This document shows positions 14,022 to 50,095 of a stretch of DNA of 64,000 nucleotides, piece after piece. Below the pieces are notes generated by a model that had not been told where the DNA came from, did no database searches, and saw only the letters and a program-made list of their open reading frames with translations. Within the stretch, counting starts at the first letter, position 1. The number at the start of each line of letters is the position of its first letter. A program made the translations under genes and the position numbers. The stretch is from NCBI RefSeq assembly GCF_030408455.1, contig NZ_CP046977.1, forward strand, positions 1,798,001 to 1,862,000, given 5' to 3'. Origin of the DNA: Corynebacterium atrinae (GTDB lineage: Bacteria; Actinomycetota; Actinomycetes; Mycobacteriales; Mycobacteriaceae).

Positions 14022-14205
14022 TCCAAATCTTCCTGTGCGCCTACCGGGTTAGCTGTCGGGTTGGGAGACGGAAGCTTCCCTACCCCACTCCACGGCGATC
14101 AAATCGCCGCTCTTGCGGGAATTCACCCCAGATGAATGCTGGTGGTTCCCCGGCCCCTCCCCACTGGCACCCCTAGTGGAATACCCTCGGTTCGGATTAG
14201 GCTTG
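14022..14205 (-). ncRNA. ydaO/yuaA-type c-di-AMP riboswitch
   Basis: The minus-strand leader of the NlpC/P60 gene contains the ordered signature blocks of this aptamer class: CCTAATCCGA (14191-14200), GGGGAACCA (14143-14151), GGGGTGAAT (14121-14129), GGGAAGCTTCCGTCTCCC, and the highly characteristic ACCCGACAGCTAACCCGG / GTAGGC run (14039-14062). ydaO aptamers bind c-di-AMP and are known upstream of cell-wall hydrolase genes in Actinobacteria. The ribosome binding site follows the aptamer at once, so translational occlusion or early termination are both possible. In most known cases ligand binding switches expression off. Confidence 0.9.
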
Positions 14206-14641: not shown

Positions 14642-14680
14642 AGGAGCCCGGCACCCCCAGGTATTGGGTGCCGGGCTCCT
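14642..14680 (-). terminator. Intrinsic terminator of ctaE-qcrCAB
   Basis: Perfect 15-bp stem, AGGAGCCCGGCACCC (14642-14656) with GGGTGCCGGGCTCCT (14666-14680), 9-nt loop, followed on the minus strand by TTCTTTATATA. It lies 30 bp after the qcrB stop. Confidence 0.9.
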
Positions 14681-14709
14681 AATTGGTGAGCGCAGTCTTT
14701 CAGAACCTA

Positions 14710-16338
14710 CTAGTCGAGCAGGCCCTTGTCGCGATCAGCCTGACGATTAGCCTCTTGCAGCTTCTCGAACATGGCCTTCTCTTCTGCCTCATTCTCGTGG
14801 TGAATGGAGTCGAGGCGATCGGTGACATCCTGCGGATCCGGGCTGAACGCGCCGCCGCGGCTGACGACATCGGCGAAGCCGAGCTCGTTCATCTGCTTCG
14901 GGACTCGTGCGCCTGCGTACGCCAACGGCACCGGGTGCCCATGAGAGTCGACCGGGCCTAGCGGCTGGTGGATCTCGACGAAGGCACCATTCGGCATCTG
15001 CTTGATGACGCCGGTTTCGATACCGTGCTCCAGGACCTCGCGGTCAGAGCGCTGCAGACCAACACAGATGCGGTGAGTGACGTAGTAGGCCAGCGGCGGC
15101 AAGATGATGATGCCGATGCGTCCCACCCAGGTCATAGCATTCAGCGAGATCTGGAAGAAGTGGGCCACGTGGTCGTTACCACCAGAGATGGTAACCAGCA
15201 TGAAGAACACGATGGACATAACGCCGATGCCGGTACGAACCGGAACATCGCGCGGACGCTGCAGCAAGTTGTGGTGAGCATCGTCGCCAGTGGCCTTCTT
15301 CTCAATCCACGGGTAAGCGAACAGAGCCACGACCATCAGACCACAGACCAGGGCAACCCAGAAGGCGGAGGGAATGGTGTAGTTGCCAAGGTAGAGCTCC
15401 CACGCCGGCATGACTCGGGCAACACCGTCAGTCCACAGCATGTAGACGTCAGGCTGGGAGCCTGCGGAGACCTGCGAAGGATTGTAGGGGCCGATCGTCC
15501 AAATAGCATTGATCGTGGTGAGGCCGGACATCAGCGCGAGCACACCGGCGGTCAAGAGGCCGAAGCCGATTGCCTTGGTGGCGAACAGCGGCATGATGCG
15601 AATACCAACCACGTTGTTCTCGGTGCGGCCAGCGCCCGGGAACTGAGTGTGCTTCTGGTACCAAACCAGGGCCAGGTGAGCCGCAATCAAACCGAGGATA
15701 ATGCCCGGAATGATGAGGACGTGCGCGATGTAGAAACGGTCCAGCATCAGATCGGACGGGAAGTCGCCACCGAAGATGAGCCAGTGCAGCCAGGTACCGA
15801 TGATCGGCAGACCAACAATGATGGCAGACATGATGCGCAGGCCGACGCCGGAGAGCAGGTCATCCGGGAGGGAGTAGCCCATGAAGCCTTCGGCCATGCC
15901 GAGGATGATGAGGGTACAACCGATGATCCAGTTGGCTTCACGCGGGCGACGGAACGCACCGGTGAAGAAGACGCGCAGCATGTGCACGACCATGGCCATC
16001 ATGAACATCAGTGCGGCCCAGTGGTGCATCTGCCGGACGAAAAGGCCTCCGCGGACTTCGAAGGAAATATCCAGGGCCGTTGCGTAGGCACGTGACATTT
16101 CGACGCCGTTGAGCGGAAGGTACGCACCGTCGTAAATCACCTTGGTAATCGACGGGTCGAAGAACAGTGCCAGGTACACACCGGTCAGCAGCAGGATGAT
16201 GAAGCTGTAGAGCGCCATCTCTCCCAGCATGAAGGACCAGTGGGTCGGGAAGACCTTGTTCAACTGCGGGCGAATGAGGCCCGCGATGGTGTAGCGGGAA
16301 TCGATATTGTTGCCAGCTTGGGCAAGTTTTTTGCTCAT
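14710..16338 (-). CDS. qcrB: Cytochrome bc1 complex, cytochrome b subunit
   Basis: 542 residues, larger than mitochondrial cytochrome b as usual in actinobacteria because of a C-terminal extension. Eight to nine helices; haem b ligand histidines lie in the second and fourth helices (for example [23 protein letters not shown]), with [11 protein letters not shown] and the Q-site region preserved. It oxidises menaquinol and passes electrons to QcrA and to haems b. The start ATG overlaps the qcrA stop by one base (TAATG). The polar tail [20 protein letters not shown] is expected in the cytoplasm. Part of the bc1-aa3 supercomplex. Confidence 0.95.
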
Positions 16339-17555
16339 TATGACTTACGCTCCCAGAATGCCGGGCCGACGGGCTCAATGAAGTTACCGTTTGCTACCAG
16401 GTAACCGTCTTCATCCACAGTGATCGGCAGCTGCGGAAGTGCACGGGCGGCGGGACCGAAGACGGGCTTTCCGTACTGCAGTGCGTCGAACTGCGACTGG
16501 TGGCAAGGGCACAGGATTCGGTTGGTCTGAGCCTCGTAGAGCGAGGTCGGGCAACCAATGTGGGTGCAGATCTTCGAGTAGGCGTAGTAGTCGCCGTAGT
16601 GGAAGGATTCCTGACCCTCACGCTCAATTGCGCGCTCCGCGTCAGCAGAACGAAGGCGAATAAGCATGACAGAGTTACGAGGGCCATGGATGGAGTGCAT
16701 CTGGTTCTCGTACACATCGCGGGTGGGATCGTAGAGGTCGCCATCGTTGCAGTCTTCCTCAGTCAACGGGTAGACGGTCTCCATTCCGCCAGCGGCGAGA
16801 TCCTCAGGACGGACTCGGACCAAGCGGGAAACACCAGCGGTGGTCCAGTGGGTACCGGCCTGCCCCTTGTGCTCCTCGGCGACAGCACCCGTGTCGCGAG
16901 CGAGGTACAGCTTGACGCCCTCGTTCTGCAGGGTCCATCCGGAGGTCCACAGCGTGCCGTCACCCATGATGCCGAGCTCGCCCTTCTTCCACGGGTTCTT
17001 GATCATGCCGCCCAGCGGGGCTACAACAACCAGACCGAAAAGAACCGCCGCGCCGCCGAAGAGCCCCTGGAGAGCCTTACGACGACCGAGGGTGGAAGTC
17101 TCCCAGGAGTCGTTCAGCAATGCCGTGATCGTGCGACGGTCGACCTCTTCCGAGGGGCCGTCGTGACGACGCTGGACCGAGATCTCCTCGGGCACAATCT
17201 TCTTCACGTACAAGACGACAGCCATTCCCAGCGAGATGATGGAAAGACCGGCGGTAAGGCCCAGCAGCGGTGTGTAGAAGGTGTGGAAGAGGTGTCCCTC
17301 TTCGCCCAAGTTCTTAAACTCCCACGGCCAGAAGATGTAGACGCCCAGGAAGGCAATCGCCGTCACGATGGCGATGATCAACCAGATTGCGACGCTGCGA
17401 GACGCCCGCTTCTCAGCGGGGTCATTGGGAACCGGGAAGCGTGCCTTGCGGTACGCAACGGTGACATCGTCAAGCTCAGTGCCCAGGCGGGCGAGCTCAT
17501 CGTTGCTCATAGCGTTGAGTTCCTGCTTGGTGTACTTCTTCTTGTCGTTGCTCAT
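16338..17555 (-). CDS. qcrA: Cytochrome bc1 complex, Rieske iron-sulfur subunit
   Basis: 405 residues. Three N-terminal membrane helices (about 55-80, 95-118, 180-200), typical of actinobacterial QcrA, then the Rieske fold with cluster ligands in ICTHIGCP and CPCHQSQFD. It takes one electron from menaquinol and hands it to QcrC. ATG 17555 is preferred to an in-frame start 19 codons upstream because the qcrC stop overlaps it as ATGA and the protein length then matches the family. Confidence 0.95.
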
Positions 17556-18439
17556 GAGCGCGATCCAATCCACATTGCGGCTGCACCAACTAGGGTGATG
17601 CCAATGAACCACATAGCCATACCTTCAGAGACGGGGCCGAGGCCACCGAGGCTCCATCCGCCGGGAGACGGAGTCTCCTTGGAAGCCTTGATGAAGGCGA
17701 TGATGTCCTTCTTCTCGTCGGCAGACAGCTGACGATCAGAGAACTTAGGCATGTTCTGCGGCCCGGTCAGCATGGCCTGGTAGATTTCCTGCTCGTTCGC
17801 AGGATCCAGGGTCGGGGCGTACTTTCCGGAGGAGAGTGCGCCACCACGACCGGTGAAGTTGTGGCAGGAGGCGCAGTTCAGACGGAAGAGCTCGCCACCG
17901 CGGGCGATGTCTTGGGCGTCGATCTGGCCGTTGTAGTTAGCACCACGGAGATCCTCCATAGCGATGGTGCCGTCCTCGTTGTACACGAGCTCCGGACCGC
18001 CACCATTGGCTGCCACGTAAGCGGCCATAGCGAGAGTCTGCTGCTCGGTGTAGCGAGGAGTCTTACGCTCAGCCTGAGCGTCATTCGACATCATCGGCAT
18101 ACGGCCGGAGTGAACCTGGAAGTAAACGGCACCTTCGCCGGTGCCGATGAGCGACGGTCCGCGATCCGGGACGCCTTGGAGGTTGGCACCGTGGCAGGTG
18201 ATGCAGGCCAGATTGTAGAGGTCCTTGCCCTCTTGGATCAGAGCCTGATCATCACGCTGCGCGGTGGCTACCTGTGCGTCCGGAGTCAGCGCCGTTGCGA
18301 GAAGACCCGCGCCGGTGAGGCCGAGGGTCAATGCGAAGGCGCCCGCGATGAGCCGACGCGCCTTGCGCCGACTGCGGACCTTCTTAGCCGGGGTGTTCGA
18401 CGAAGTGTCGCCCGCGGCGTTGTTCGGAGTATTTTCCAT
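17552..18439 (-). CDS. qcrC: Cytochrome bc1 complex, dihaem cytochrome c subunit
   Basis: 295 residues with two CXXCH haem c sites, CITCH in the first and CASCH in the second cytochrome c domain, an N-terminal signal anchor (about 28-50) and a C-terminal membrane helix near 270-290. Actinobacteria lack soluble cytochrome c, and this dihaem subunit connects the bc1 complex directly to the CuA site of CtaC. ATG 18439. It follows ctaE after 70 bp that contain a stable hairpin. Confidence 0.95.
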
Positions 18440-18480
18440 CAGTTTCCCTTTTGAAAATCGTGAACGGAAAGTGAAGGGCT

Positions 18481-18513
18481 GTAGGCCGAGTAGCTCGGCT
18501 GGCTACGGCCTAC
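18481..18513 (-). other. Intercistronic hairpin ctaE/qcrC
   Basis: GTAGGCC-GTAGC pairs with GCTAC-GGCCTAC (arms 18481-18494 and 18502-18513, a 2-nt bulge, 7-nt loop) and overlaps the ctaE stop codon. No T tract follows, so an mRNA processing or stability element is more likely than a full terminator. Confidence 0.5.
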
Positions 18514-19124
18514 TGGACTAGGTACAAAGTGATGAAGACGCCGATCCAAATAACGTCGACGAAGTGCCAGTAGTACGACACGACCATGGCCGCGGTGGCC
18601 TGTGCCGGCGTGAACTTGGACTTTTGGAGACGGAGGAGGATCACGACAAACGCGATCACACCGGCCGTCACGTGGGCTGCGTGGAAGCCCGTAATGATGT
18701 AGAAAACGGAACCAAAGACGCTGGACTGAATAGTCACACCGTGATGGATCATCTCGTAGTACTCGAAGGACAGGAAGCCAAGGAAGGCCACTGCCAATGC
18801 CACGGTGATGCCAAACCAGCGTCGAAGACCGTATACGTCACCCCTTTCAGCTGCGAAGACGCCCAACTGTGCGGTGAAGGAGGAGACCACAAGGATCGTC
18901 GTAATGATGAATCCATAAGTCACGTTGAGGTGGGAAGTCTGATACTCCCAGTCTCCTGCTAGGCCATTCGCACGCGATGTGAAGTACATCGCGAACAGTC
19001 CGGCGAAGAACATCAATTCCTGCGACAGGAACACAATGGTGCCGACACTGACCATGTTGGGTCGGTTCAGTGCCGGAACACGCTGTGGTGCTGCCATACC
19101 TGGGTTTGAAACTGCGCTCGTCAC
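18510..19124 (-). CDS. ctaE: Cytochrome c oxidase subunit III
   Basis: 204 residues, five membrane helices, the short actinobacterial form of subunit III. Recognisable segments are the FFAGLFAMYFTSRANG stretch, FEYYEMIHHGV and the final HFVDVIWIGVFITLYL. The frame extends 90 codons upstream into low-quality sequence; GTG 19124 is chosen because the protein then has family length and CATACT (19132-19137) ends 7 nt before it. First gene of the ctaE-qcrC-qcrA-qcrB unit. Confidence 0.93.
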   Translation of the reverse strand: MTSAVSNPGMAAPQRVPALNRPNMVSVGTIVFLSQELMFFAGLFAMYFTSRANGLAGDWEYQTSHLNVTYGFIITTILVVSSFTAQLGVFAAERGDVYGLRRWFGITVALAVAFLGFLSFEYYEMIHHGVTIQSSVFGSVFYIITGFHAAHVTAGVIAFVVILLRLQKSKFTPAQATAAMVVSYYWHFVDVIWIGVFITLYLVQ

Positions 19125-19131
19125 GTATGTA

Positions 19132-19137
19132 AGTATG
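19132..19137 (-). promoter_or_regulatory. -10 CATACT, leaderless ctaE
   Basis: CATACT on the minus strand, 7 nt, then GTG 19124. No Shine-Dalgarno sequence is present in the gap. Confidence 0.55.
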
Positions 19138-19613
19138 ACGGGTTGAGAGGGGGAAGTCACTTCATATCCCCCCGCCAAGAATGGGCCTTTAGGAACGCGA
19201 CCTGCGGTTTTGGAGGCACCCCAAGTTCCTGAACTTTTCCCCTTACCCCCGGGAACTTTTCCACCACATTGAACGACGAGGCATTCGTGCAGGTCATCTC
19301 CCCCATTAGTGTCCTCGACCCCCCAAGGACACTTGTTTCGCGCAACGATACCCGATGATTCACCCACGGTCTCGAGAACCACACAATCACCCAAAGAGAT
19401 CTAAATCACATGCAAGCGGCGCGCTTTCCCCTGCTTTCAAACTTTCGGTTGACCCCCTCTGAACTGCACCAACCCCCGCTTCGAGCACCACAAAATGCAG
19501 ATATCCGTGGCTGACTGAGGTGTGGTGCCGATGACACTTCGCTTCCCGGTAGGCGAAGCAGTAGGCACCCCCTCCCGGACGATGGTCGCCAGCCTGAACC
19601 ACAGCGAGCAAAA
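19138..19613. other. Gene-free stretch between ctaE and ctaF
   Basis: About 475 bp with frames that are broken or poor in every direction. It must hold the upstream control region of the respiratory operon on the minus strand. A small hairpin (CTTCGC 19537-19542 with GCGAAG 19553-19558) is the only structure I noted. Confidence 0.45.
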
Positions 19614-19645
19614 CGGCGCCTCCCCCTTCTCAAGGGGAGGCGCCG
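19614..19645 (-). terminator. Intrinsic terminator of ctaC-ctaF
   Basis: 12-bp perfect stem CGGCGCCTCCCC (19614-19625) with GGGGAGGCGCCG (19634-19645), 8-nt loop, followed on the minus strand by TTTTGC; 38 bp after the ctaF stop. Confidence 0.88.
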
Positions 19646-19683
19646 CCAGGATTGCGTGGAGTTCGTTCAGACCACTAAGGAAA

Positions 19684-20115
19684 CTAGTGCTTTTCCTTAG
19701 GCAGCCCGTACTGGAGATTCAACATGGTGCCGGACCATACGAGAAGTACTGCACCGAGGCCAATCATCCAGAAGTGCCAGAAGGCGATGCCGAGTCCGAG
19801 GACCGCGATGGAACCGGCCATAGCTGCGGGCCAGATAGAGCTCGGAGAGAAGAAACCGAGAATACCGGCCTTGTCAGCGACCTCAGCCTCTTCCCAATCC
19901 TCAGGAACAATATCGGTGCGCCGCTCGGTGAAATTGATGTAGCCAGCGAGCATGATTGCGAGACCGAAGGACAGGACGAGGGCGACGATGCCGACCCACT
20001 CCGCGCCGTAGAGGTACGCGTCATCCTGAACGTTGACCGTGGCGAAGATGTAGATCAACGCCATGAGGCCGAGGAACGCGGAGATTCCGTACAGCAGTTT
20101 TGAGCTAGGATTCAT
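19684..20115 (-). CDS. ctaF: Cytochrome c oxidase subunit IV (actinobacterial)
   Basis: 143 residues with four membrane helices in two pairs (about 8-28, 40-60, 92-112, 115-133) and the [11 protein letters not shown] loop typical of actinobacterial CtaF. In C. glutamicum this small subunit is part of the aa3 oxidase. ATG 20115 lies 15 bp after the ctaC stop, so the two are translated from one mRNA. Confidence 0.92.
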
Positions 20116-20130
20116 TGCTTTTCTCCCCGC

Positions 20131-21225
20131 TTAGGTGTTGGCGTTGTTGTCGACGACGTTGTCGCCGTCCCAGGTCTGACGGGACGAGTTGAACGGGTGG
20201 GTAGAGACTGCGTAAGGCGCCTGTCCGATCGACTCGAGTGCCGCGGAATTCGGGGCATCGGGGTTGTCGATGCGGTATTGCATGTAGGCGCGGAAGTCCT
20301 CCGGGGAGACAGCACGCAGCTCGAAGTTCATCATCGAGTGGTAGGTGCCACACATCTCGGCACAGCGACCGACGAAGGCACCTTCTTCTTCGATTGCTTC
20401 AATCTGGAAAGCTCGCTGCTGCTGGTTGGCTTCCGGGTGGGCGTAAGCGTCGCGCTTGAACAGGAACTCCGGGATCCAGAAAGAGTGAGCAACGTCGCCG
20501 GAGGCGAGTTGGAACTCAATTGCAGTGTTGGTCGGGAGGACCAAGACCGGAACCTCTTCGGTGGTGCCAAGAGTCTCGATCTTGTTGAAGTGGAGGTAGG
20601 ACTGATCACCCTTGGACATGCCATGGATCGGGTTCGGGTTCTTCACCGTCTCCGGGTCATCCACCTTGGACAGGTCAGCCAATGCTTGACGCTCGGCGTC
20701 CGCACCGTCGTAGTCAGAACCAGTGGGGCTCAGTTCAGCGGCCACGTTCTGGTAGCCGAACTTCCAGTTCCACTGGAATGCGGTGACGTCGACCGTAACC
20801 TGCGGGTCCTTATCCAGGGCAACAACCTTGTGTTGGGTCTGGATGGTGAAGAAGAACAGGACCATGACGATCACGATCGGCATGATGGTCAGCACCAGCT
20901 CAAGCGGAATGTTGTACTGAAGCTGCTTCGGGAACTCGCCCTTGCCCTTCTTTTCCGCCTTCTTGGCACCCCAGCTGAAGATGGCCACCAGCATGAGAAT
21001 CCACATGATGATGCCGATAATCCAGGCGGTAACCCAGACCCACACCCAGAAGTTGTACATGGCGGTAGCTTCCGGGGTGATACCCGTCGGCCAGCCCATG
21101 CCTAGAATCTTGCCGACGCCCTCTGGGGGTGCGACGTCGCAACCAGCAAGCATCATGCCGCCGAGAGCCATCACACCGCCGAGACCCGCCTTGCGAGCGA
21201 GACCGCGTTTTTTACGCTGTTCCAC
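20131..21225 (-). CDS. ctaC: Cytochrome c oxidase subunit II (lipoprotein)
   Basis: 364 residues. Signal peptide with lipobox LAGC near residue 29, two membrane helices, then the CuA cupredoxin domain with FVGRCAEMCGTYHSMM (the two Cys, Glu carbonyl, His and Met ligands). It accepts electrons from QcrC. GTG 21225 is chosen because AGGAAGG lies 9 nt upstream and the longer frame adds no signal features. A charged insertion around residues 160-195 (region of DYDGADAERQALADL) is typical of the actinobacterial protein. Confidence 0.94.
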   Translation of the reverse strand: MEQRKKRGLARKAGLGGVMALGGMMLAGCDVAPPEGVGKILGMGWPTGITPEATAMYNFWVWVWVTAWIIGIIMWILMLVAIFSWGAKKAEKKGKGEFPKQLQYNIPLELVLTIMPIVIVMVLFFFTIQTQHKVVALDKDPQVTVDVTAFQWNWKFGYQNVAAELSPTGSDYDGADAERQALADLSKVDDPETVKNPNPIHGMSKGDQSYLHFNKIETLGTTEEVPVLVLPTNTAIEFQLASGDVAHSFWIPEFLFKRDAYAHPEANQQQRAFQIEAIEEEGAFVGRCAEMCGTYHSMMNFELRAVSPEDFRAYMQYRIDNPDAPNSAALESIGQAPYAVSTHPFNSSRQTWDGDNVVDNNANT

Positions 21226-21662
21226 GTGTGTCTGCCTTCCTGTCCACACTAAATCCCTTGAACACTGGTGAAGCATTCCTATCTCAGGAGGATAGTTCAT
21301 CCACGGACCTCATCCGAGTGGTTTCACTTCCCCCGCGCAGGGTAATTGCCCACCAACGCCACATAATTCCCCCAGGATGTTACAGCCCATGTGGGATAAC
21401 CTCCGAAAGGTGCTGGACAAGCACGCAGTGCCATGTAACCCAACTCACATTGACTAGTTGCCTCCATCATCCGAAAGTATCCCTCCGTTAGGGTGCGAGT
21501 TCACCCCTTTGCTCGTTTCCCCAGCCCTGCACCCCCGGAGCCCGAAGGCCCACAACGCCGTGATTTAGCGCTAACTCCCCCTTCGGCCGTATCGTAGGGC
21601 CATCCACTTCTCATGGTCCGCTCCCCCGGATGCATCCCGCTATATAGAGGAGAAATTCTTAG
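21226..21662. other. Divergent control region ctaC / asnB
   Basis: 437 bp without a gene. On the minus side an inverted repeat CTATC...GATAG (21280-21296 region) lies about 65 bp upstream of ctaC. On the plus side the asnB leader carries GAGGAG before ATG 21663. I could not place -35/-10 pairs with confidence. Confidence 0.45.
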
Positions 21663-33269: not shown

Positions 33270-33341
33270 TGCGATATGACTTCACCCATTAATCGAGAGT
33301 GCCGACTGAGCTACTCGATTATTGGGTGAAGTCATATCGCA
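33270..33341. repeat. 28-bp inverted repeat, 16-nt loop
   Basis: Arms 33270-33297 and 33314-33341 differ at one position: TGCGATATGACTTCACCC... and ...GGGTGAAGTCATATCGCA. It is AT-richer than its surroundings, lies after the E2 terminator, and no T tract follows, so it is not an ordinary terminator. The rest of the 350-bp gap before gcvP shows only the gcvP promoter. Confidence 0.9.
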
Positions 33342-40851: not shown

Positions 40852-42471
40852 GTGAACATTTTCGTCGAGAGCCCCTTGTTGGCTCTTCTCGTCATCATGG
40901 CTGTGGGCCTGTTGTTCGGCCGCGTACGCATCTTTGGCTTTCGCCTAGGCGTCGCGGCCGTCCTTTTCGTTGGCCTGGTCATGGCTGCAATCGAGCCTGC
41001 TATCCAGATCCCCTCCCTCATCTACATTGTCGGACTATCGCTGTTCGTCTACACGATCGGCCTCGAGTCCGGACACGACTTCTTTGCCAACTTCCGTTCC
41101 AAAGGTCTGCGCAATAATCTCCTCGCGGTGCTTGCCTTCGCCGTCATTTCGGCGGTGACCTACGGATTGGTCAAGCTGTTCGGCCTGCATGGTGTCACAG
41201 GTACCGGTATGTTTACCGGCGCCCTCACCAACACCCCGGCCATGGCAGCCGTTGTCGAGGCCCTGCCCACGATCTACACGGATGCGGGCGAGCTGAAGTC
41301 GGTGGAGGCGCTCCCGCTGGTGGCCTACTCGCTGGCATATCCGCTCGGCGTGCTGTTGGTCATCCTCACCATCGCCTTCTTGGGCAAGCTATGGAAGGTC
41401 GACTACGACCAGGAAGCCCTTGAGCATGGCGTGGCGGTCCAGGAGCTATACACTCGCCGGATCTTGGTTAAACGCGACGACCTCCACGCCATTGCCGAAT
41501 TGCCGGAAGATCTCAACCTCTCAGTCATCGTCTCCCGGCTGGAGCGCGACGGCGAGCAACGCATCCCCTCCCAGTCGGCTTGGGCGAAGCAGGGAGACAT
41601 CCTCTCCGTCGTCGGCACCGAGGAAGAGCTGGAGCGCGCCGCAGAGCTGCTCGGCGAGGCCCTGCCCGGCGATCCCTTCCACGGCCATGACCTGGACTAC
41701 CGCCGCATCTTCGTGTCCAACAATGACCTCGTGGGCATCCCCCTGGCGAAGCTGCGGCCGCAACTGTCCGGCCTGCTCATCACCCGCGTGCGCCGCGGCG
41801 ATCACGACATGATCGCCACCCCGGACACCATCTTGCAGCTCGGCGACCGCGTGCGCGTTGTCTCCGCACATAACCGCATGGGCAAGGTCACCCGCCTGTT
41901 CGGCGACTCCTATCGGCGGCTTTCCGACGTCAATTTGTTCCCCCTCGTTGCCGGTCTCGCCATCGGCGTGGCGGTGGGCATGATCGCCATCCCGATCCCT
42001 GGCGGCGCCGAGCTCAAGCTCGGTAGCGCGGGCGGCCCCCTCATCGTGGCCCTCATCCTGGGTGCGATCGGGCGCTCGGGAAAGATCGTGTGGCAGGTCC
42101 CCTACGGGGCGAACTTGGCCCTGCGGCAGATGGGTATCGCGCTGTTCCTTGCGGCGATTGGCACGACCGCCGGCGCCGGGTTCCGCGACGCGCTCTCCGA
42201 CCCGGTCTCGCTCACCATCATCGCCGCCGGCGGGCTGGTGACGTTCATCCTCTCGGTGTTCGTCATGGTCGTCGGCTACAAGATCATGAAGCTATCCTTC
42301 GGCGAGACCGCGGGCGTTCTCGCGGGTATCCAAACGCAGCCTGCCGTGCTGGCCTATCTTTCCGATACAGCCAAGAACGAGCTGCCCGCCATGGGCTACA
42401 CCTCGGTGTACCCGGTGTCGATGGTGCTGAAGATCATCGCCGCCCAGGTGCTGCTGATCCTGTTGATCTAG
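40852..42471 (+). CDS. sucE1: AspT/YbjL-family permease, succinate exporter type
   Basis: 539 residues. Two blocks of five membrane helices (about 4-165 and 360-538) around a cytosolic region with two TrkA-C (RCK_C) domains near 205-350, the layout of the aspartate:alanine exchanger superfamily. The C. glutamicum gene in this position (next to lipBA and DUF4191) is the succinate exporter SucE. Start GTG 40852; no clear ribosome binding site. The product would excrete dicarboxylates under low oxygen. Confidence 0.82.
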   Translation: MNIFVESPLLALLVIMAVGLLFGRVRIFGFRLGVAAVLFVGLVMAAIEPAIQIPSLIYIVGLSLFVYTIGLESGHDFFANFRSKGLRNNLLAVLAFAVISAVTYGLVKLFGLHGVTGTGMFTGALTNTPAMAAVVEALPTIYTDAGELKSVEALPLVAYSLAYPLGVLLVILTIAFLGKLWKVDYDQEALEHGVAVQELYTRRILVKRDDLHAIAELPEDLNLSVIVSRLERDGEQRIPSQSAWAKQGDILSVVGTEEELERAAELLGEALPGDPFHGHDLDYRRIFVSNNDLVGIPLAKLRPQLSGLLITRVRRGDHDMIATPDTILQLGDRVRVVSAHNRMGKVTRLFGDSYRRLSDVNLFPLVAGLAIGVAVGMIAIPIPGGAELKLGSAGGPLIVALILGAIGRSGKIVWQVPYGANLALRQMGIALFLAAIGTTAGAGFRDALSDPVSLTIIAAGGLVTFILSVFVMVVGYKIMKLSFGETAGVLAGIQTQPAVLAYLSDTAKNELPAMGYTSVYPVSMVLKIIAAQVLLILLI

Positions 42472-42477
42472 CCTGCG

Positions 42478-42954
42478 TTAGCCGCGGATGACGGCCGTGC
42501 CGGTGGCACGGTCGTGGAGCCCGCGGCCGTCGGAATCCACCATCGCGGCGGGCAGAACCAAGGCGGTGAGCAGAGTGCGCGCGACGGCGCGCCACAGGCC
42601 CACGCGGGCCCCACCGACGTCGACCCGGGCAACTCCCATGCCGAGAGCGATGTGCCCCGGTGTGCGGGAGAACAGCCACCCGCAAACAATGCCCAGGATG
42701 ACCCAGAAGATGAGGGTGACCGTGGCGACGTCGCCAAGCGACGAAGAAAAACGCACGAAGACGATGGCGAACATCCAGCAGATGAACCAATCGATGGCCA
42801 CACCGACGGCGCGGCGGGCGACAGATGCCAAGGAGCTCGGTCCTGTGGCGGGCAATCCCAGCTTCTCGCCGGGCCATTGGCCGGGGGCAAAGGGGTCGTC
42901 GTGTTCGCCGGGGATCTGCGGGCCGTCGAGCCAGCTGCGCTTGGGGTTTGCCAT
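42478..42954 (-). CDS. RDD-family membrane protein
   Basis: 158 residues with an RDD domain: RRAVGVAIDWFICWMF (the Arg-Asp pair), a second helix, and GMGVARVDVGGARVGLWRAVART followed by a final hydrophobic segment. Unknown function; often near glnA in corynebacteria. ATG 42954, with TAGGCT ending 7 nt before it. Convergent with the permease gene (6-bp gap). Confidence 0.83.
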   Translation of the reverse strand: MANPKRSWLDGPQIPGEHDDPFAPGQWPGEKLGLPATGPSSLASVARRAVGVAIDWFICWMFAIVFVRFSSSLGDVATVTLIFWVILGIVCGWLFSRTPGHIALGMGVARVDVGGARVGLWRAVARTLLTALVLPAAMVDSDGRGLHDRATGTAVIRG

Positions 42955-42961
42955 GCCTGAA

Positions 42962-42967
42962 AGCCTA
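42962..42967 (-). promoter_or_regulatory. -10 TAGGCT, leaderless RDD gene
   Basis: TAGGCT on the minus strand, 7 nt, ATG 42954. Confidence 0.5.
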
Positions 42968-43013
42968 GCGGGAGCCTTCGCATAGTTCGAATGAGTGATT
43001 ACCCCCACTCCGC

Positions 43014-43047
43014 TTGACAATAAAATCGGTCGATCGACTAATATTAT
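43014..43047 (+). promoter_or_regulatory. glnA promoter with central palindrome
   Basis: TTGACA (43014-43019), 19 bp, TAATAT (43039-43044). The spacer carries the palindrome GTCGATCGAC (43029-43038). Its place between -35 and -10 suits repressor binding. It only partly resembles the AmtR site, so the regulator is open. Confidence 0.55.
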
Positions 43048-43106
43048 CTCCAGCGCCTGTAGCATGGGTGTCAGCTCAACAGATTGTCTACCAACGAGGA
43101 GCCACC

Positions 43107-44543
43107 ATGGCCTTTAAGTCCATCGAAGAAGTAGTCAAGTTCATCAAGGATGAAAACGTCGAATTCCTCGACGTTCGCTTCACCGATGTCCCCGGCATCG
43201 AACAGCACTTCACCATCCCCGCTGAACTCTTCGACGAGGAAGCCGCCGAGGAAGGCCTCGCATTCGACGGCTCCTCAGTCCGTGGCTTCACGACGATCGA
43301 CGAGTCCGACATGAACCTCCTGCCGGACATTGCCACCGCGCGGCTCGACCCCTTCCGCAAGGCGAAGACCCTCAACATGAAGTTCTTCGTGCACGACCCC
43401 TTCACCCGTGAGCCCTTCTCCCGCGACCCGCGCAACGTTGCCCGCAAGGCCGAGGAGTACTTGGCATCCACCGGCATCGCCGACACCTGCTTCTTCGGCG
43501 CCGAGGCGGAGTTCTACCTCTTCGACTCCGTCCGCTACTCCGCCGACATCAACTCCAGCTTCTACGAGGTCGACTCCGACGAGGGCTGGTGGAACCGCGG
43601 CGAGGAGTACAACCTCGACGGCTCCCGCAACCTCGGCTACAAGACCCGCGTCAAGGGCGGCTACTTCCCCGTCCCGCCGTACGACACCACGACTGATATC
43701 CGCGACGAGATGGTCCGCCACCTCCGCTCCGCCGGCTTCGACCTCGAGCGCTTCCACCACGAGGTGGGCACCGGCGGCCAGCAGGAAATCAACTACAAGT
43801 TCAACACTCTCCTGCACGCAGCCGATGACCTGCAGTCCTTCAAGTACATCGTGAAGAACACCGCTGTGGCGAACGCGAAGTCCGCCACTTTCATGCCCAA
43901 GCCACTCGCCGGTGACAACGGCTCCGGTATGCACGCCCACCAGTCCCTGTGGAAGGACGGCAAGCCGCTGTTCCATGACGAGTCCGGCTACGCTGGCCTG
44001 TCCGACATCGCCCGCTACTACATCGGCGGCATCCTCCACCACGCCGGCGCGGTCCTGGCCTTCACCAACCCGACGCTGAACTCCTACCACCGTCTGGTCC
44101 CCGGCTTCGAAGCCCCGATCAACCTCGTGTACTCGCAGCGCAACCGTTCCGCCGCCGTGCGCATCCCGATCACCGGTTCCAACCCGAAGGCCAAGCGCAT
44201 CGAGTTCCGCGCCCCGGACCCCTCCGGCAACCCCTACTTCGGCTTCGCCGCCATGATGCTCGCCGGCCTCGACGGCATCAAGAACCGCATCGAGCCGCAC
44301 GCCCCCGTGGACAAGGACCTCTACGAGCTCCCGCCGGAGGAAGCAGCCTCCATCCCGCAGGCACCGACCTCCCTCGAAGCCTCCCTGGCAGCCCTGCAGG
44401 AAGACTCCGAGTTCCTCACCGAAGGCGACGTCTTCACCGAGGACCTCATCGACACCTACGTCAAGTTCAAGTACGACAACGAGATCTCCCCGTCGCGCCT
44501 GCGCCCGACGCCGCTCGAGTTCGAGATGTACTACGACTGCTAG
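43107..44543 (+). CDS. glnA: Glutamine synthetase type I
   Basis: 478 residues, dodecameric GSI-beta type. Motifs [19 protein letters not shown], the ATP region [16 protein letters not shown], and the adenylylation site Tyr in [11 protein letters not shown]. It makes glutamine from glutamate and ammonia and is inactivated by adenylylation by GlnE, encoded 17 kb away in this window. Start ATG 43107 with ACGAGGAG upstream; the longer frame begins before the promoter and is excluded. Confidence 0.95.
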
Positions 44544-44577
44544 GAGGGACTGCTTAGCCGCGGCCCCACATGCTCCT

Positions 44578-44625
44578 GCAAGGCCCCGCCTCCCACCGTC
44601 TCCGCGGTGTGAAGCGGGGCCTTGC
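44578..44625 (+). terminator. Terminator of glnA
   Basis: Perfect 12-bp stem GCAAGGCCCCGC (44578-44589) with GCGGGGCCTTGC (44614-44625); the loop holds a second stem CACCG/CGGTG. T tract weak. Confidence 0.8.
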
Positions 44626-44648
44626 GTCTATAGGTTCGGACAGCAGCA

Positions 44649-44808
44649 AACCCACTGGCGGTGGCGCGCTACTCGGTCCGACTAGCGCTTGCTGTGATTT
44701 CACCATAGTGAAACGGGTCCCTTCATCCGCCCTGGAGCGCCTGAGACGAGTCGTTTCTACGGGGTGATATCACGCCTACAGAGGGTTCCCATCGCTGACA
44801 GCCCTTGA
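44649..44808. repeat. Structured direct repeat, copy A
   Basis: About 160 bp that recur at 45900-46056. The first 60 bp after 44654 are identical in both copies. Internal hairpins: GCGCTA-C-TCGG-T-CCGA-C-TAGCGC (44666-44688) and TTTCAC-CATA-GTGAAA (44698-44713), enclosed by GGCGG (44657-44661) and CCGCC (44727-44731). GTGATATCAC lies further on (44764-44773). Copy A ends at the promoter of the SRPBCC gene. Confidence 0.9.
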
Positions 44809-44851
44809 CGCCATTAACTAACAGTGTTAGCTTCAGAACTAACACTGTTAG
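44805..44851 (+). promoter_or_regulatory. SRPBCC gene promoter with double TetR-type operator
   Basis: TTGACG (44805-44810), 17 bp, TAGCTT (44828-44833). Two palindromes flank and overlap the -10: CTAACAGTGTTAG (44818-44830) and CTAACACTGTTAG (44839-44851), centres 21 bp apart, so on the same face of the helix. The tetR gene two positions on is the likely source of the repressor. Confidence 0.8.
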
Positions 44852-44866
44852 TCATAGGAGGCTGCC

Positions 44867-45379
44867 ATGAGAACCCGCACCATCATCACCCTTTCCGTCA
44901 CCGGTCTTTGTGTTGCCACCGCGACGGCCGGATTCCTAATTCCCTACCGCGTAGAACAACGCGCCACTGCCACCGCGTCGCGCGAGCAGGCATGGGAAGT
45001 CATCACTGATTTGCCCGGACACGTGGATTGGAACCCGCACACTGTTGAATTGTCGGGAACGCCTGCAGTCGGCGAGACTTTACTCAATCGCACCCAGTCC
45101 AGTGGGACAGAATTCACCTTCCGGCCGGTTGTCCTCGTGGCCAAATCTGGGCAGGAGCTGCGCTGGCGAGGAACTACACTGATGAGAGGCATCGCGGACG
45201 GGGAACACTATTTCCGGATCGACCCAGGTCCCAGACCAGGGACCGTGACCATCGTCCAGGGCGAAGAGTTTCGAGGAGCCGCCGTGATGCTACTGCGGCC
45301 CTTCTTCAATCTCGAGGAGGAATTCGCCACCAGCACCGAAGCGCTGGCGGCGGCCATCACCGACCACGCCCACAGGTAG
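44867..45379 (+). CDS. SRPBCC-fold membrane-anchored protein
   Basis: 170 residues. A short basic start and one membrane helix (about 5-24), then an SRPBCC (START/polyketide cyclase-like) domain with REQAWEVITDLPGHVDWNP and a C-terminal amphipathic helix. Such folds bind hydrophobic ligands; the ligand is not deducible. AGGAGG at 44856-44861, 5 nt before ATG. Controlled by the double operator upstream; tetR begins 9 bp after its stop. The cassette lies between two direct repeats, a sign of acquisition or duplication. Confidence 0.78.
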   Translation: MRTRTIITLSVTGLCVATATAGFLIPYRVEQRATATASREQAWEVITDLPGHVDWNPHTVELSGTPAVGETLLNRTQSSGTEFTFRPVVLVAKSGQELRWRGTTLMRGIADGEHYFRIDPGPRPGTVTIVQGEEFRGAAVMLLRPFFNLEEEFATSTEALAAAITDHAHR

Positions 45380-45382
45380 ATT
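45377..45382 (+). promoter_or_regulatory. -10 TAGATT overlapping the SRPBCC stop
   Basis: TAGATT starts with the stop codon of the SRPBCC gene and ends 6 nt before ATG 45389: possible leaderless tetR transcript independent of the operator. Confidence 0.45.
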
Positions 45383-45388
45383 TTGAGT

Positions 45389-45901
45389 ATGGATCGCCCC
45401 ACACCCCAGCCCCTCACTCACCGGACCGCTGCGATCATCTCTGTGGCGCGAGAGATGCTTGAGGAAACAGGCTGGGAGACTCTGACGATGCGCCGCCTGG
45501 CCGAGCGTGTGGGAATGAAGGCACCGTCGCTATACAACCACGTTGCCAACAAGGAGGAGCTGGGAACCATCATTCTCACGCAATCCTTCTTCCAGATGGG
45601 CGACGCACTGTGGGAGGCAACGACAGTCGCGAATCTGCTTGACCGCTACCGCACTCAAGCAACGCGACATCCGCATCACTATCGGTTAGCAACTACCGGC
45701 CCCCTTGAGCGCTCAGCACTTCCCCCCGGGCTGGAGGATTGGTCGGGCGCCCCATTCGCCCGGGTCACCGGCGATCCGCTCAAGGCGCAGAGCCTGTTTG
45801 CCTCGACACACGGGCTAGCAATCCTCGAGATCGATGGCCGTTTCCCGCCAGGCTCCCCGATCGACGATCTATGGGAGCAAACAGCAGAGATCTACCGCTA
45901 A
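45389..45901 (+). CDS. TetR-family transcriptional regulator
   Basis: 170 residues. N-terminal TetR HTH: HRTAAIISVAREMLEETGWE, then TMRRLAERVGMKAPSLYNHVANKEEL. The C-terminal ligand domain ends with the LAILEIDGRFPP type motif of the TetR-C/WHG group. Likely represses the SRPBCC gene through the CTAACA-TGTTAG sites. ATG 45389; TTG 45383 is an alternative. Its stop codon is where repeat copy B begins. Confidence 0.83.
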   Translation: MDRPTPQPLTHRTAAIISVAREMLEETGWETLTMRRLAERVGMKAPSLYNHVANKEELGTIILTQSFFQMGDALWEATTVANLLDRYRTQATRHPHHYRLATTGPLERSALPPGLEDWSGAPFARVTGDPLKAQSLFASTHGLAILEIDGRFPPGSPIDDLWEQTAEIYR

Positions 45902-46056
45902 CCTACTGGCGGTGGCGCGCTACTCGGTCCGACTAGCGCTTGCTGTGATTTCACCATAGTGAAACAGACCCCCACATCCGCCCTGGAGCGCCTGAGACGA
46001 GCCCTTTCTACCGCGTGATCTCACGAACCGCAGGGACCCCATCCCTGACAGCCCGT
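45900..46056. repeat. Structured direct repeat, copy B
   Basis: Same orientation as copy A, offset 1251 bp. Both hairpins and the closing GGCGG (45908-45912)/CCGCC (45978-45982) are unchanged; the five substitutions within that 75-nt core all lie in the unpaired linker 45966-45974. The later palindrome reads CGTGATCTCACG. Beyond it the 242-bp gap before the CPBP gene shows nothing else. Confidence 0.9.
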
Positions 46057-46143
46057 TGCCAGCCGCCCCTCCCGACTCCCCCAGCGAGATTCCTTAATCT
46101 CACCTAAGTAAGTACACAGTTCTCTACTTGGGAGTCAACCACC

Positions 46144-46830
46144 TTGTTATCATCGCGCCTGCGCACGCCCCTGATCTACGCGGCAATCTATGTGCTGGTT
46201 TCTCAGCTTCTACCGCAAATCTTCGGGCTCTTCATCCCGAAGAGCACCACCGGCTTTTGGAACAGCCTCAATGTGGGAGGGTACTTCTTCCTCGCGATCT
46301 TGGCGGTGGTGATGTTTCGGGAGGTGTTCCGTGAGGCCCTGGCCGAGATAAAGAACCATCCGCTCAAGGTCCTAGGTCAGACGGCCATCGCGTTTGTGGC
46401 CATCTTTGCCATCTCGGCGTTGTTCCTGCTACTCAAGGGCACGGAGGGGGCGCCGACGGCGAACCAGGAGGCCGTGAACCAGTTCTTGGCCACCTCGGCG
46501 TTCGCCGTCATCATCGCGGTAATTCTGGGCCCGGTAGTGGAAGAGATCGTGTTCCGGGAGATTCTCATCGGCCGACTGAGCATCAAGTTCCCAGTGTGGT
46601 TGCTCAGCGTGGCGTCGGTGGTGTTGTTTAGCCTCATTCACCTGCGCAGCTTCACGCCCGCAGGCCTGATGGAGGCAGGTCAGTACATTGCGATTGGCGT
46701 CGTCATGACCGCGTTGTACCTGTTCAATGGTCGAAAGCTGGCTTATCCCCTTGTGGGCCACGCGGTGAATAACCTCGTGGCCACGGGGTTGAGCTTCGCG
46801 GCGATCTCGGCGCAGTCCGCCGCGGCTTAA
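46144..46830 (+). CDS. CPBP-family intramembrane metalloprotease
   Basis: 228 residues, six to seven helices with the ABI/CPBP motifs: VVEEIVFREIL (EEXXXR), FSLIHL and VGHAVNNLVA (His and Asn). Members process CAAX-like or other membrane proteins or act in bacteriocin immunity; the target is unknown. Start is the TTG at 46144, with GGGAG 9 nt upstream; no ATG or GTG fits better without losing the first helix. Follows repeat copy B. Confidence 0.8.
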   Translation: MLSSRLRTPLIYAAIYVLVSQLLPQIFGLFIPKSTTGFWNSLNVGGYFFLAILAVVMFREVFREALAEIKNHPLKVLGQTAIAFVAIFAISALFLLLKGTEGAPTANQEAVNQFLATSAFAVIIAVILGPVVEEIVFREILIGRLSIKFPVWLLSVASVVLFSLIHLRSFTPAGLMEAGQYIAIGVVMTALYLFNGRKLAYPLVGHAVNNLVATGLSFAAISAQSAAA

Positions 46831-46835
46831 GCCGC

Positions 46836-47396
46836 CTAGACGTTGGCGGACTCGGTGATAGCGGCAGCGTCGATAAGCTCGTCGGCGATGGCATTGACCC
46901 AGTCAATGCCCTGCTGACCCGGGGTAAAGACCATGTCGGGGAAGTGCTCGGTGAAGGAGAATTCGGCCTGGGCCGGGACGAGCTTCATTCCGACGCGTCC
47001 AACGATGTCGTGCCAGTGCGCGACGGAGGTGCGGGCGGCACCAGCACCGTAACCGATGAAGCCGACGGGCTTACCGGTCCACTCCTCAAACAGCTGATCA
47101 TAAGCATCCTTCATCGGGCCAGGAATGGAGGCGTTGTACTCCGGGGTGACGAAGATGAAGGCGTCGAATTGACCGATAAGTTCCGCCCAGGCGCGGGTCT
47201 TCGGGTCGGCGTAATCGCCGTTTTTGACCATGCGCGGGGGGTTGGCGGTCATGGGGTTAAGGTCTTGCTCCTTGAGGTCAACGAGCACGTACTCGTTGCC
47301 ATCGTGTCGAGCCTCAAGCTGCTCGATGGCCCACTGGCCGATGGTGATGCCGGAGCGTCCCTCACGGATGGAACCGACGAACACTGCGATCTTCAT
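46836..47396 (-). CDS. NADPH-dependent FMN reductase family protein
   Basis: 186 residues, flavodoxin-like fold: VFVGSIREGRSG binds the FMN phosphate, VTPEYNASIPGPMKDAYDQL is the family motif, GYGAGAARTS follows. Reduces quinones, azo compounds or FMN with NAD(P)H. ATG 47396 with GAGGAG 5 nt upstream; the longer frame is discarded. Convergent with the CPBP gene. Substrate unknown. Confidence 0.87.
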   Translation of the reverse strand: MKIAVFVGSIREGRSGITIGQWAIEQLEARHDGNEYVLVDLKEQDLNPMTANPPRMVKNGDYADPKTRAWAELIGQFDAFIFVTPEYNASIPGPMKDAYDQLFEEWTGKPVGFIGYGAGAARTSVAHWHDIVGRVGMKLVPAQAEFSFTEHFPDMVFTPGQQGIDWVNAIADELIDAAAITESANV

Positions 47397-47485
47397 GATT
47401 ACTCCTCTGTTTGTTGACTCGCCAACATTATCACTTGGTGTCGTATCCACAAAACAATCGTGAGCGACCTCACTTCGGCTAAAAA

Positions 47486-48244
47486 TTAGCACTCACGATA
47501 CGGATCATCGACGATCATTCCCGTCGATTCATGCAGCTCACCGAGGTTGTACGCCTCCCGCAGATTGTCAATCGTTAAGACCTGCTCCGGGGGCCCGAAA
47601 GCAACGACTCGGTTGGACATAAGGATGACATGGTCGGCTGCGCGCGCCTCATCCAGATCATGGGTGGTGTGGACAACCGTGCGGCCATCATCGGTCTCAT
47701 CGTGAATGATCTCATCGATCGTGCGAGCGGACACGAGATCGAGCCCGGTGAGCGGCTCATCGAGGAGCAACACGTCGTGTGATTGGGCGAGGCCTTGTGC
47801 AACATAGACGCGCTGGCGCTGCCCGCCGGACAGCTCTTCCAGGTGCCGACGGGCGAGATCGGTGACGCGCAAGCGGTCCATGACGGCGTCGATACGCTTT
47901 TTATCAGCGGCGTTTAGCCGCCCAAACCACCCCGACTGGGGATAGCGGCCCATGGAGACGATCTCGCGCACTGACAGTGGCACGCCCTCCGGGAAGCTCA
48001 CGGATTGCATGACGTAGCTAATGCGCCGTTTAGCCGCATCGGCCCGTCCCCCCAACACCACCAACTCGCCGCCGAGCGGCTCAATGAGCCCGCCGAGAGC
48101 GTGCAACAGCGTCGACTTGCCGGACCCATTGGGGCCGATGATGGCCGTGAGTTTGCCCGCTGGGATGGAAAAATCCGATGGCTGCACGGCGATGGTGCGG
48201 TCATAGCCCAGGCTCAGGTCGCGGGCGTGCGCGAATTCACTCAT
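47486..48244 (-). CDS. Metal ABC transporter, ATP-binding protein
   Basis: 252 residues with Walker A GPNGSGKST, signature LSGGQRQRVYVAQGLAQ, Walker B VLLLDEPLTGLD and switch His in TTHDLDEA. Third gene of a minus-strand metal import operon; its ATG overlaps the permease stop by 4 nt (ATGA). Energises uptake of a divalent metal, probably zinc. Confidence 0.9.
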   Translation of the reverse strand: MSEFAHARDLSLGYDRTIAVQPSDFSIPAGKLTAIIGPNGSGKSTLLHALGGLIEPLGGELVVLGGRADAAKRRISYVMQSVSFPEGVPLSVREIVSMGRYPQSGWFGRLNAADKKRIDAVMDRLRVTDLARRHLEELSGGQRQRVYVAQGLAQSHDVLLLDEPLTGLDLVSARTIDEIIHDETDDGRTVVHTTHDLDEARAADHVILMSNRVVAFGPPEQVLTIDNLREAYNLGELHESTGMIVDDPYREC

Positions 48245-49098
48245 GCTGCCACTCCCGCGGTAACGGCGGGGCGTTTAGTGCGCCGACGGCGGAGATACTG
48301 GACTTCCATGACGAGGAGGAAGAAGACGATGGGCACGAGCGCCATCGTGGCCGCGGCGGCGGTACCCCAGTAGTAGCTGAGGATGAGGCCGATGACGACG
48401 GAGGCGGCGCCGATCACCGCCGATAGCGCAATCATCATGGGAATGGAGCGCGAAAGCAGTGCCGCGGCCGAGGGCGGGGCGACGAGCAGGCTGAACACCA
48501 GCATCGTGCCCACGGCCTGGAAGCTGCCGATGACGGCGGTGGCGATGAGCACGAGCAGGAGGGCATGAGTGAGCTTGGGTCGCATGCCCAGGGACTCGGC
48601 CTTGACCGGGGAGAAAGACAGCACGAGCAGGGGCCGGTAGAGCAGAAGCGAACCGACGATCACCACAACCGCCAGCACTGCCTGCTGCTGGATCGCCGCC
48701 CATGACACGCCGAGGGCATCACCGAACAGGATGCTGGTCAACGAGCCGGTGAAGGAACTCGAGCGGGAAATGATGACCACGCCCAGGGCCATCATGCCCA
48801 CGAACAACAGGCCGATAGCCGTGTCTTCTTTGAGGTTGGTGTGCCGGTGAATCACCTCCACGGCCCCCACCATCACCGCGGCGGCGACGGCGGCACCCAG
48901 GATGGGGCTGAAGTCGAAGACGACCGCCGCCGCGATTCCCGGCAGGACGCCGTGGACGAAGGCGTCTCCGAAAAAGCTCATGCCGCGCAGAACGAGCCAC
49001 ACGCCCACGGTGGCGCTCATCACGGCGGCGATGAGTCCACCGATGAGGGCTCGCTGCTGGAATCCCAGCAAGAACGGTTCTATTAGCCAATCGATCAC
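48241..49098 (-). CDS. Metal ABC transporter, permease
   Basis: 285 residues, ABC-3 family, about eight helices; MSFFGDAFVHGVLPGIA and LVAPPSAAALL are typical. Starts with GTG 49098, 37 bp after the binding-protein gene. Same family as ZnuB/MntB, so zinc or manganese; the His-rich binding protein favours zinc. Confidence 0.9.
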   Translation of the reverse strand: MIDWLIEPFLLGFQQRALIGGLIAAVMSATVGVWLVLRGMSFFGDAFVHGVLPGIAAAVVFDFSPILGAAVAAAVMVGAVEVIHRHTNLKEDTAIGLLFVGMMALGVVIISRSSSFTGSLTSILFGDALGVSWAAIQQQAVLAVVVIVGSLLLYRPLLVLSFSPVKAESLGMRPKLTHALLLVLIATAVIGSFQAVGTMLVFSLLVAPPSAAALLSRSIPMMIALSAVIGAASVVIGLILSYYWGTAAAATMALVPIVFFLLVMEVQYLRRRRTKRPAVTAGVAA

Positions 49099-49135
49099 GG
49101 GTCTACGGTAGTCCCTTCTGCCGCCAAGGGAGGTG

Positions 49136-50095
49136 TTAGGAGAGCGCTTGGGCGATGAGGCGGGCGTTTTCGCGCATCATTCCTTGGTAGTCTGCGGCCG
49201 GAGAATCAGCCGGGCCGGTGCTGCCAACGTACAGCGGAACGACCTGCACGTCATTGCCTACTTCCCGCGCGAGCGAGTCGACCAGGCCCTGGCCAACGGC
49301 GGTGTTGGAGAAGATCACCGGAACTCCCCGGTCCTTGATGGTCGCGGCCAGCGCTGCGAGATCCTGGGACGAGGGCTCGGCTTCCGTGGAGCCACCAGGG
49401 ACGACCACGCCGGCGGATTCGAAGCCGTAGGCGGCGTTGAAGTACCCAAAGGCATCGTGATCAGTAACGATCACGCGCTTGTCCGCCGGAACCTTAGCCA
49501 GGGTCTCCCGCAGCTCCCCGTCGAGCTCGGCGAGTTGCTTGCTCACGTCGTTTCCGCACTCGGACCACTTCGAATCCTCGGAGAGTTCTGCGGCCTTCGT
49601 GCCAATGAGCTCCGCAGCCTGTGCCATGCGCCCGGCATCGAGCCAGAAGTGCGGATCAAATTCGCCGTGGTCATGCCCTTCATGTCCGGCGTGATCATGG
49701 TCATCGTGATCACCGAAGGGAAGGGGGTTGAATTCCTCAGCCACGTCCACGACGGGGATGCCGTCGAGTTCGACCTGGTCCAGGGTGGTGGCCAGTCCAT
49801 CTTCGAGGCCTAGGCCATTGGCGATCACCACGTCGGACTTCATCAACGCCGCGATCTGCGCGGAGGAGGCGGAAAAATCGTGCGGATCGGCGCCGACCGG
49901 CATCAACGTGGTGTAGTTGCCACCGGCGCAGGCGGCGATCTGCTCCGTCACGCTGCCCAGCGGAGTTGTCGTGGCCACGATGGTCAGCTCGTCGTTGGCG
50001 CCATTGTCGGAATCGCTGGCAGAAGAGCAGGCGGCTAGCGCGAGGCTGGAGACTGCGGCAAGTCCAATGAGGGAGGCAGATCGCTGGAGGCGCAT
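49136..50095 (-). CDS. znuA: Metal ABC transporter, substrate-binding lipoprotein
   Basis: 319 residues. Lipobox LAAC near residue 22; cluster A-I fold with metal ligands at GADPHDFS and HFWLDAGRM and at TDHDAFGYF. A flexible loop HDDHDHAGHEGHDHGEFD near 148-165 is the hallmark of zinc-binding ZnuA-type proteins and is absent from most manganese proteins. ATG 50095 is chosen for the signal peptide. Two overlapping inverted repeats upstream suggest metal-dependent repression. Confidence 0.87.
   Translation of the reverse strand: MRLQRSASLIGLAAVSSLALAACSSASDSDNGANDELTIVATTTPLGSVTEQIAACAGGNYTTLMPVGADPHDFSASSAQIAALMKSDVVIANGLGLEDGLATTLDQVELDGIPVVDVAEEFNPLPFGDHDDHDHAGHEGHDHGEFDPHFWLDAGRMAQAAELIGTKAAELSEDSKWSECGNDVSKQLAELDGELRETLAKVPADKRVIVTDHDAFGYFNAAYGFESAGVVVPGGSTEAEPSSQDLAALAATIKDRGVPVIFSNTAVGQGLVDSLAREVGNDVQVVPLYVGSTGPADSPAADYQGMMRENARLIAQALS

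Follow-up and report, generated by a model that had tools for sequence, protein, structure and literature searches.

The SRPBCC and tetR genes of this Corynebacterium genome probably form an old operon, and the direct repeats that flank them are likely not what carried them there. The explanation that we favor, and regard as likely though well short of certain, combines this old operon with the copying of a palindrome-bearing segment from one of its sides to the other and with nested homologous exchange of the locus between species; the cassette itself would not have been carried by the repeats. The window, that is, the whole stretch of DNA that was analyzed, comprises 64,000 nucleotides (G000:C1:1798001–1862000). 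We refer to the window genome as G000 and to its sister genome as G169; the structure described here is known from these two genomes only, with one genome per species. The features of the locus are collected in Table 1.

Table 1. Positions of the repeats, genes, putative control sites, and exchange tracts, in window coordinates.
Feature	Position	Strand	Remarks
Outer exchange tract (putative)	42951..48200	.	96.7% identical to G169, vs 87.8% and 83.0% in the flanking segments
Inner, probably most recent exchange tract with G169	44214..45965	.	left limit at ~44214 in glnA or at 44649; right limit between 45936 and 45966
Direct repeat copy A	44649..44804	+	matches copy A of G169 at 154/156 positions
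Imperfect 80-nt palindrome within A (dispersed family)	44694..44773	+	R1 E = 1.1e-20 (A belongs to the training set); fold −31.5 kcal/mol
Putative promoter: −35 TTGACG (44805–44810), −10 TAGCTT (44828–44833)	within 44805..44852	+	by eye; a consensus scan found no promoter
Two operator-like palindromes	44817–44830, 44839–44852	+	recur as CTAAC..GTTAG in relatives
SRPBCC gene (Polyketide_cyc2, SRPBCC superfamily), 170 aa	44867..45379	+	N-terminus hydrophobic (by eye)
tetR gene (TetR_N, TetR_C_33), 170 aa	45389..45901	+	Pfam domains; frame also listed from an upstream TTG at 45383
Direct repeat copy B	45900..46055	+	begins on the tetR stop codon; final 90 nt diverged
80-nt palindrome in B, decayed	45945..46024	+	fold −14.1 kcal/mol in G000 vs −34.8 in G169
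CPBP (Rce1-like) gene	46144..46830	+	within the genus, close match in G169 only

A first, sequence-only reading of this DNA had described two direct copies of an element of about 160 bp lying 1251 bp apart, and both BLAST and a site-by-site comparison, from which the ends in Table 1 are taken, bear this out. The two copies are identical at 136 of 155 positions overall; the agreement is 65/66 over 44649–44714, 49/59 over 44715–44773, and 22/30 over 44774–44804, and the ungapped core spans 129 nt at 91% identity (44646–44774 and 45897–46025) and is followed by a 23-nt block at 87%. Given agreement at this level, chance is an unreasonable source of the similarity. The same reading had also placed the copies and named the genes correctly: B starts on the stop codon of tetR (TAA, 45899–45901), A ends directly 5′ of the putative −35 hexamer of the SRPBCC gene (a promoter recognized by eye), and the names SRPBCC, tetR, and CPBP hold (Polyketide_cyc2; TetR_N plus TetR_C_33; CPBP/Rce1-like). 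It had proposed a BLASTN search with the element as a check. In its own genome B matches A and B only (second match at E = 3.9e-50), that is, there is no third full-length copy of the 156-nt element among the 11 of 11 candidates scored; G169 also has no third full-length copy (20 of 20 scored), its two further matches being 28 and 82 nt long. Full-length elements are present in 2 of the 242 genomes of the genus, G000 and G169 (best three candidates per genome scored). The weak matches in other genomes prove, when read, to be chance-like stretches of 20–40 nt; the exception is one place at 396 kb in G169, which led to the palindrome family described below.

The operon has relatives that lack the repeats. 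When the SRPBCC protein is compared with 201 genomes of the genus, 14 match at E ≤ 0.001, and the close relatives are encoded by G169 (99% identity), G102 (77%), G019 (64%), G074 (60%), and G175 (58%). Among named records, the two nearest to the SRPBCC alignment are Corynebacterium sp. genomes, hence the genus given here. In G102, G019, G175, and G074 the SRPBCC gene is followed by tetR and, further downstream, by a gene for FMN reductase; GlnA is encoded upstream in G102, G019, and G175 (with other ORFs between in G019 and G175), and the G074 locus ends before the position of glnA. BLAST finds the repeat element at none of these four SRPBCC–tetR loci. In all four, a region with a CTTGAC hexamer and CTAAC..GTTAG palindromes lies 5′ of the SRPBCC gene; G102 and G019 have both palindromes intact, and in G175 and G074 one of the pair is degenerate. 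Because promoter and operators recur in four species without the repeat, they are independent of A; because they also lie outside the repeat in the window, ordinary promoter sequence is rejected as the source of the similarity between A and B. The presence of the operon, with a similar promoter/operator, in four species without repeats suggests that the SRPBCC–tetR pair is probably older than the repeats.

The sequence-only reading had seen in the repeats the signature of an acquired or duplicated module, that is, of two genes that entered between duplicated ends. The gene pair is indeed flanked by direct repeats, and the divergence of the cassette between G000 and G169 is anomalously low; however, the pair is found with a similar promoter/operator and shared neighbors in four species without repeats, and SRPBCC followed by TetR also occurs in records of Bowdeniella nasicola and Actinocorallia populi, so we consider this manner of entry very unlikely. 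The repeats therefore lose their standing as a mark of acquisition, and what survives of the claim is an apparent recent exchange between G000 and G169 (338/340 vs 602/665 identical third codon positions, detailed below). The statement that no transposase accompanies the unit stands: none of the ten proteins of 40852–50095 that were scanned has a transposase domain, the protein of 42478–42960 being without a Pfam match. An origin from a plasmid or a phage is also rejected, since 44600–46200 has no match among 72,556 plasmid records and 45880–46100 none among 50,697 phage records (sets from which records very near the window genome were possibly excluded). A search for a solved structure that matches the SRPBCC profile found none, and the results of the literature search include no paper that describes this operon or the palindrome family in Corynebacterium.

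The protein families themselves suggest how the operon is controlled: TetR probably represses it via the paired putative operators and is probably released by a ligand, perhaps hydrophobic, that is connected with the SRPBCC protein. With promoter and operators outside the repeat, the operon can probably be expressed without it.

Inside each repeat lies an imperfect palindrome of 80 nt that the sequence-only reading had not reported. Its 20-nt end, GTGATWTCACCNNGTMGAAA, was searched in eight genomes with at most three mismatches and occurs in facing pairs, 60 nt from start to start, with 8 pairs in G169 and 3 in G000; the palindrome thus has an inverted pair of conserved short palindromic ends and a variable middle. 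A covariance model made from 13 copies (R1) was run on the 242 genus genomes and matches in 10 of them at E ≤ 0.01. With the best 19 candidates per genome scored, R1 locates at least 10 places in G169, at least 4 in G000, at least 8 in G154, at least 7 in G220, at least 3 each in G175 and G074, and at least 1 each in G155, G241, G018, and G163 (a partial match in G163); the training set includes all four places in G000 and nine of the ten in G169, and the remaining genomes are independent of it. A second model (R2), made from 14 sequences of ~70 nt from G220, G074, and G175, independently finds 6 of the G169 places at E ≤ 0.01 and none in G000; therefore, the units of 70 and 80 nt belong to a single family, whose relatives elsewhere in the genus are about 70–82 nt long. 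In a draw of 301 genomes of the taxonomic family, R2 matches 10, none of them in the genus. Five of these outside loci were read: four resemble other hairpins, and one, G505:C1:2285616 (L151, in another genus of the family), has hairpin arms close to the 70-nt form (R2 E = 3e-9; its genome has one strong place and one weak) and possibly extends the palindrome family beyond the genus.

Some individual places deserve description in their own right. The R1 scan of the window finds A, B, and one weaker match at 33276–33335. This match lies in a strong palindrome at 33270–33341 (E = 7e-6). Its spacer has opposite orientations in G000 and G169, with reverse-complement matches at 33 of 34 core bases; the middle of this hairpin has been flipped or replaced between the species. 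At two loci of G000 (L092, ~7634–7680; L097, ~13260–13300) there are apparent half-length, decayed palindrome remnants where G169 has full copies. One G169 copy (L040, 1441–1600) lies just 5′ of an ORF that resembles the gene with which an IS3-type insertion sequence begins.

The palindromes are best seen as independently decaying DNA palindromes and not as a conserved RNA because their pairing is free of compensatory change: 68.1% of cells are paired vs a shuffled mean of 70.6, and pairs with changes on both sides number 12 vs 13.3 in shuffles. The pairing is clearly above that of slid versions (37–44%), as it must be for any palindrome. We reject an RNA gene on this lack of covariation, on the lack of an Rfam match at gathering score in 42900–47500, and on the folding of element A, which is little better than that of shuffles (z −1.7, −1.4). 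Two microRNA matches over the operator palindrome region were below the gathering score and were discarded.

The limits of the family members indicate how A and B arose. The palindrome copies of G154, G169, and G220 were extracted together with 400-nt flanks and aligned pairwise; of the 41 pairs with an alignment of at least 60 nt, 28 stop within 85 nt, 11 reach 87–102 nt, and two run on, A/B of G169 for 156 nt and a G154 pair for 264 nt. Because only these two extend past 102 nt, A and B were probably copied from a segment that already held the palindrome, and, with shared flanks beyond the palindrome, one of them probably derives from the other by segmental copying. The G154 pair (L101 and L119) is a second case of palindromes with common flanks, 84% identical over its 264 nt, like A/B. 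Alternatively, A and B could be independent insertions of one mobile element of ~156 nt, and it is consistent with this that both are intergenic and that their first 66 nt are nearly identical; however, 39 of the 41 palindrome pairs have at most 102 nt in common, and neither G000 nor G169 holds the third full-length copy that was sought above. We find independent insertion quite unlikely and treat A and B as copies of one segment.

The window was aligned to 66.9 kb of G169 and then segmented by identity. The segment 42951–48200 has an identity of 0.967, and the next-highest segment in the window, 13401–21500, has 0.904. At third codon positions, three genes of this tract are identical to G169 at 206/227 (CPBP), 175/186 (FMN reductase), and 221/252 (ABC ATPase) sites, 602/665 together, vs 364/539, 117/160, 176/285, and 193/319 for four genes outside the tract (p = 3e-37; Fisher, sites treated as independent). 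The cassette is closer still, with 170/170 for SRPBCC and 168/170 for tetR, 338/340 together (p = 8e-10 vs the three tract genes; Fisher, sites treated as independent). Slow evolution is not the cause of this near-identity, since SRPBCC and tetR are identical to their G102 counterparts at only 73/137 and 79/169 third positions. The right border of the outer tract lies within a ZnuA-type ABC transporter operon: identity between G000 and G169 drops abruptly at 48200–48250, between the ATPase gene (221/252) and the adjacent permease gene (176/285). The inner tract ends on the right inside B, where mismatches turn dense. On its left, glnA has 53 mismatches in its first 1107 nt and 1 in its last 330 nt, but the 105-nt gap from glnA to A contains 10 mismatched positions, three of which are one indel; the start of the inner tract is therefore either in glnA, near 44214, or where A begins. 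With this mixed left edge, a single clean inner tract bounded by the repeats is no more than a possibility.

This pattern implies a nested, recent exchange between two species at the locus, with one breakpoint inside B; a third species may have been the donor of the exchanged tract. We propose the following course. SRPBCC–tetR would be an old operon that lies 3′ of glnA and probably regulates itself. In G000 and G169, an 80-nt dispersed palindrome lies just 5′ of the operon promoter, and a 156-nt segment with the same 80-nt element lies on the other side, at the tetR stop codon. Homologous recombination would have exchanged about 5.2 kb (42951–48200) between the two species. A later exchange would have affected a smaller tract, from A through the operon into the first part of B, with one of its breakpoints inside B. 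The order of copying, the direction of exchange, and a RecA-type enzyme are parts of this course that we infer.

A and B probably also convert each other. The A copies of G000 and G169 are far closer (Table 1) than the B copies (130/154), and the 88 nt directly after B are identical at 85. In the middle third (44715–44773), A and B agree at 57/59 positions in G169 vs 49/59 in G000, and the A copies of the two genomes at 59/59. At position 44685, A and B both carry G in G000 and both carry T in G169. These signs point to gene conversion between A and B after the split of the species; they are not conclusive, the sharing within a genome amounting to one site. Ten bases of the palindrome are peculiar to B of G000: three (44751, 44753, 44763) equal the family consensus, at five the consensus base is that of A, one fits neither, and one has no consensus. 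Because only 3 of the 10 fit the family consensus, the difference may be due either to B having decayed rapidly in G000 or to its having been overwritten in G169.

The breakpoint inside B also bears on the possibility that the repeats are machinery, that is, that A and B serve as homology arms with which the operon moves between cells and species as a transposase-free cassette, by an A × B circle or a double crossover. The inner tract ends in B and includes A, and B of G000 is tract-like in its first part and diverged in the rest, the pattern expected from a crossover within B; however, the left end may be in glnA rather than in A (1 mismatch in 330 nt), the outer 5.2-kb tract requires no repeats, and no empty site, circle, or genome with a single copy and no cassette was seen (with one genome per species). 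We regard this as unlikely. A wider proposal is that the palindrome-bearing repeat pair makes a resident regulator–effector operon a transposase-free exchange cassette, swapped between species by recombination in A and B; it seems doubtful to us, and, if true, would reset the divergence of the operon to near zero while its neighbors keep theirs. In the explanation that we favor, the repeats are probably bystanders for expression yet would be substrates for homologous recombination.

The gene that looks new at the locus is the one for CPBP. Its protein is matched in 7 of 242 genus genomes at E ≤ 1e-8, with a best identity of 33% outside G000 and G169, and a search of 5.8 billion proteins at E ≤ 1e-10 found one cluster (2009 candidates scored). 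What is inserted at the two edges of the operon varies from species to species: A, B, and the CPBP gene in G000 and G169; another palindrome and a GDSL hydrolase gene in G102; an unassigned 381-aa ORF in G019; and a winged-helix regulator gene and a further ORF in G175. The G102 palindrome (L006, 1285–1355) lies between glnA and SRPBCC, in the position that A has in G000, and has perfect arms of 18 nt.

The family can be compared with known classes of repeats. MITEs are short, non-coding, scattered elements with inverted-repeat ends. The palindromes resemble them in having terminal inverted repeats with defined ends (28 of the 41 alignments stop within 85 nt). No target-site duplication was recognized by eye, and none of the six G169 loci compared with G000 offers a clean empty site. 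Unlike a composite transposon, the unit has no transposase in or beside it (among the ten window proteins scanned), and, unlike a structured RNA, the palindrome has no excess of compensatory base changes over shuffles. REP/REPIN palindromes, grouped into GTAG and CGTC superfamilies (PMC3733652), are similar in being short, dispersed palindromes with conserved ends. However, the unit here is one hairpin of about 70–82 nt and does not reach the high copy number of REPINs (at least 4 in G000, at least 10 in G169, and elsewhere at least 8 in the richest genome, best 19 candidates per genome); the CGTC string in its arms is paired rather than an unpaired end tag and hence gives no ground for placing the unit in the CGTC superfamily. 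RAYT mobilization is rejected because the Y1 transposase (PF01797, Y1_Tnp) is found in 0 of 10 genomes searched (8 with palindrome matches, plus G102 and G019 without; G018 and G163 left out), with a control that was positive in 5 of 14 known genomes. Within the same genus, the dispersed stem-loop families Cod-1, -3, and -5 of Corynebacterium diphtheriae (Cod-5: 74 nt, 35 copies) are similar in description (PMC2267715). The accessible part of another source, PMC12306157, does not mention Corynebacterium.

These results correct a natural misreading: direct repeats look like the scar of an acquisition, yet the genes between them are probably older than the repeats. They also document a low-copy family of palindromic DNA in Corynebacterium, with no Y1 transposase in the genomes searched. 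If the course proposed here is right, the locus would clearly illustrate how one operon can undergo nested interspecies exchange, with a repeat as the site of a breakpoint.
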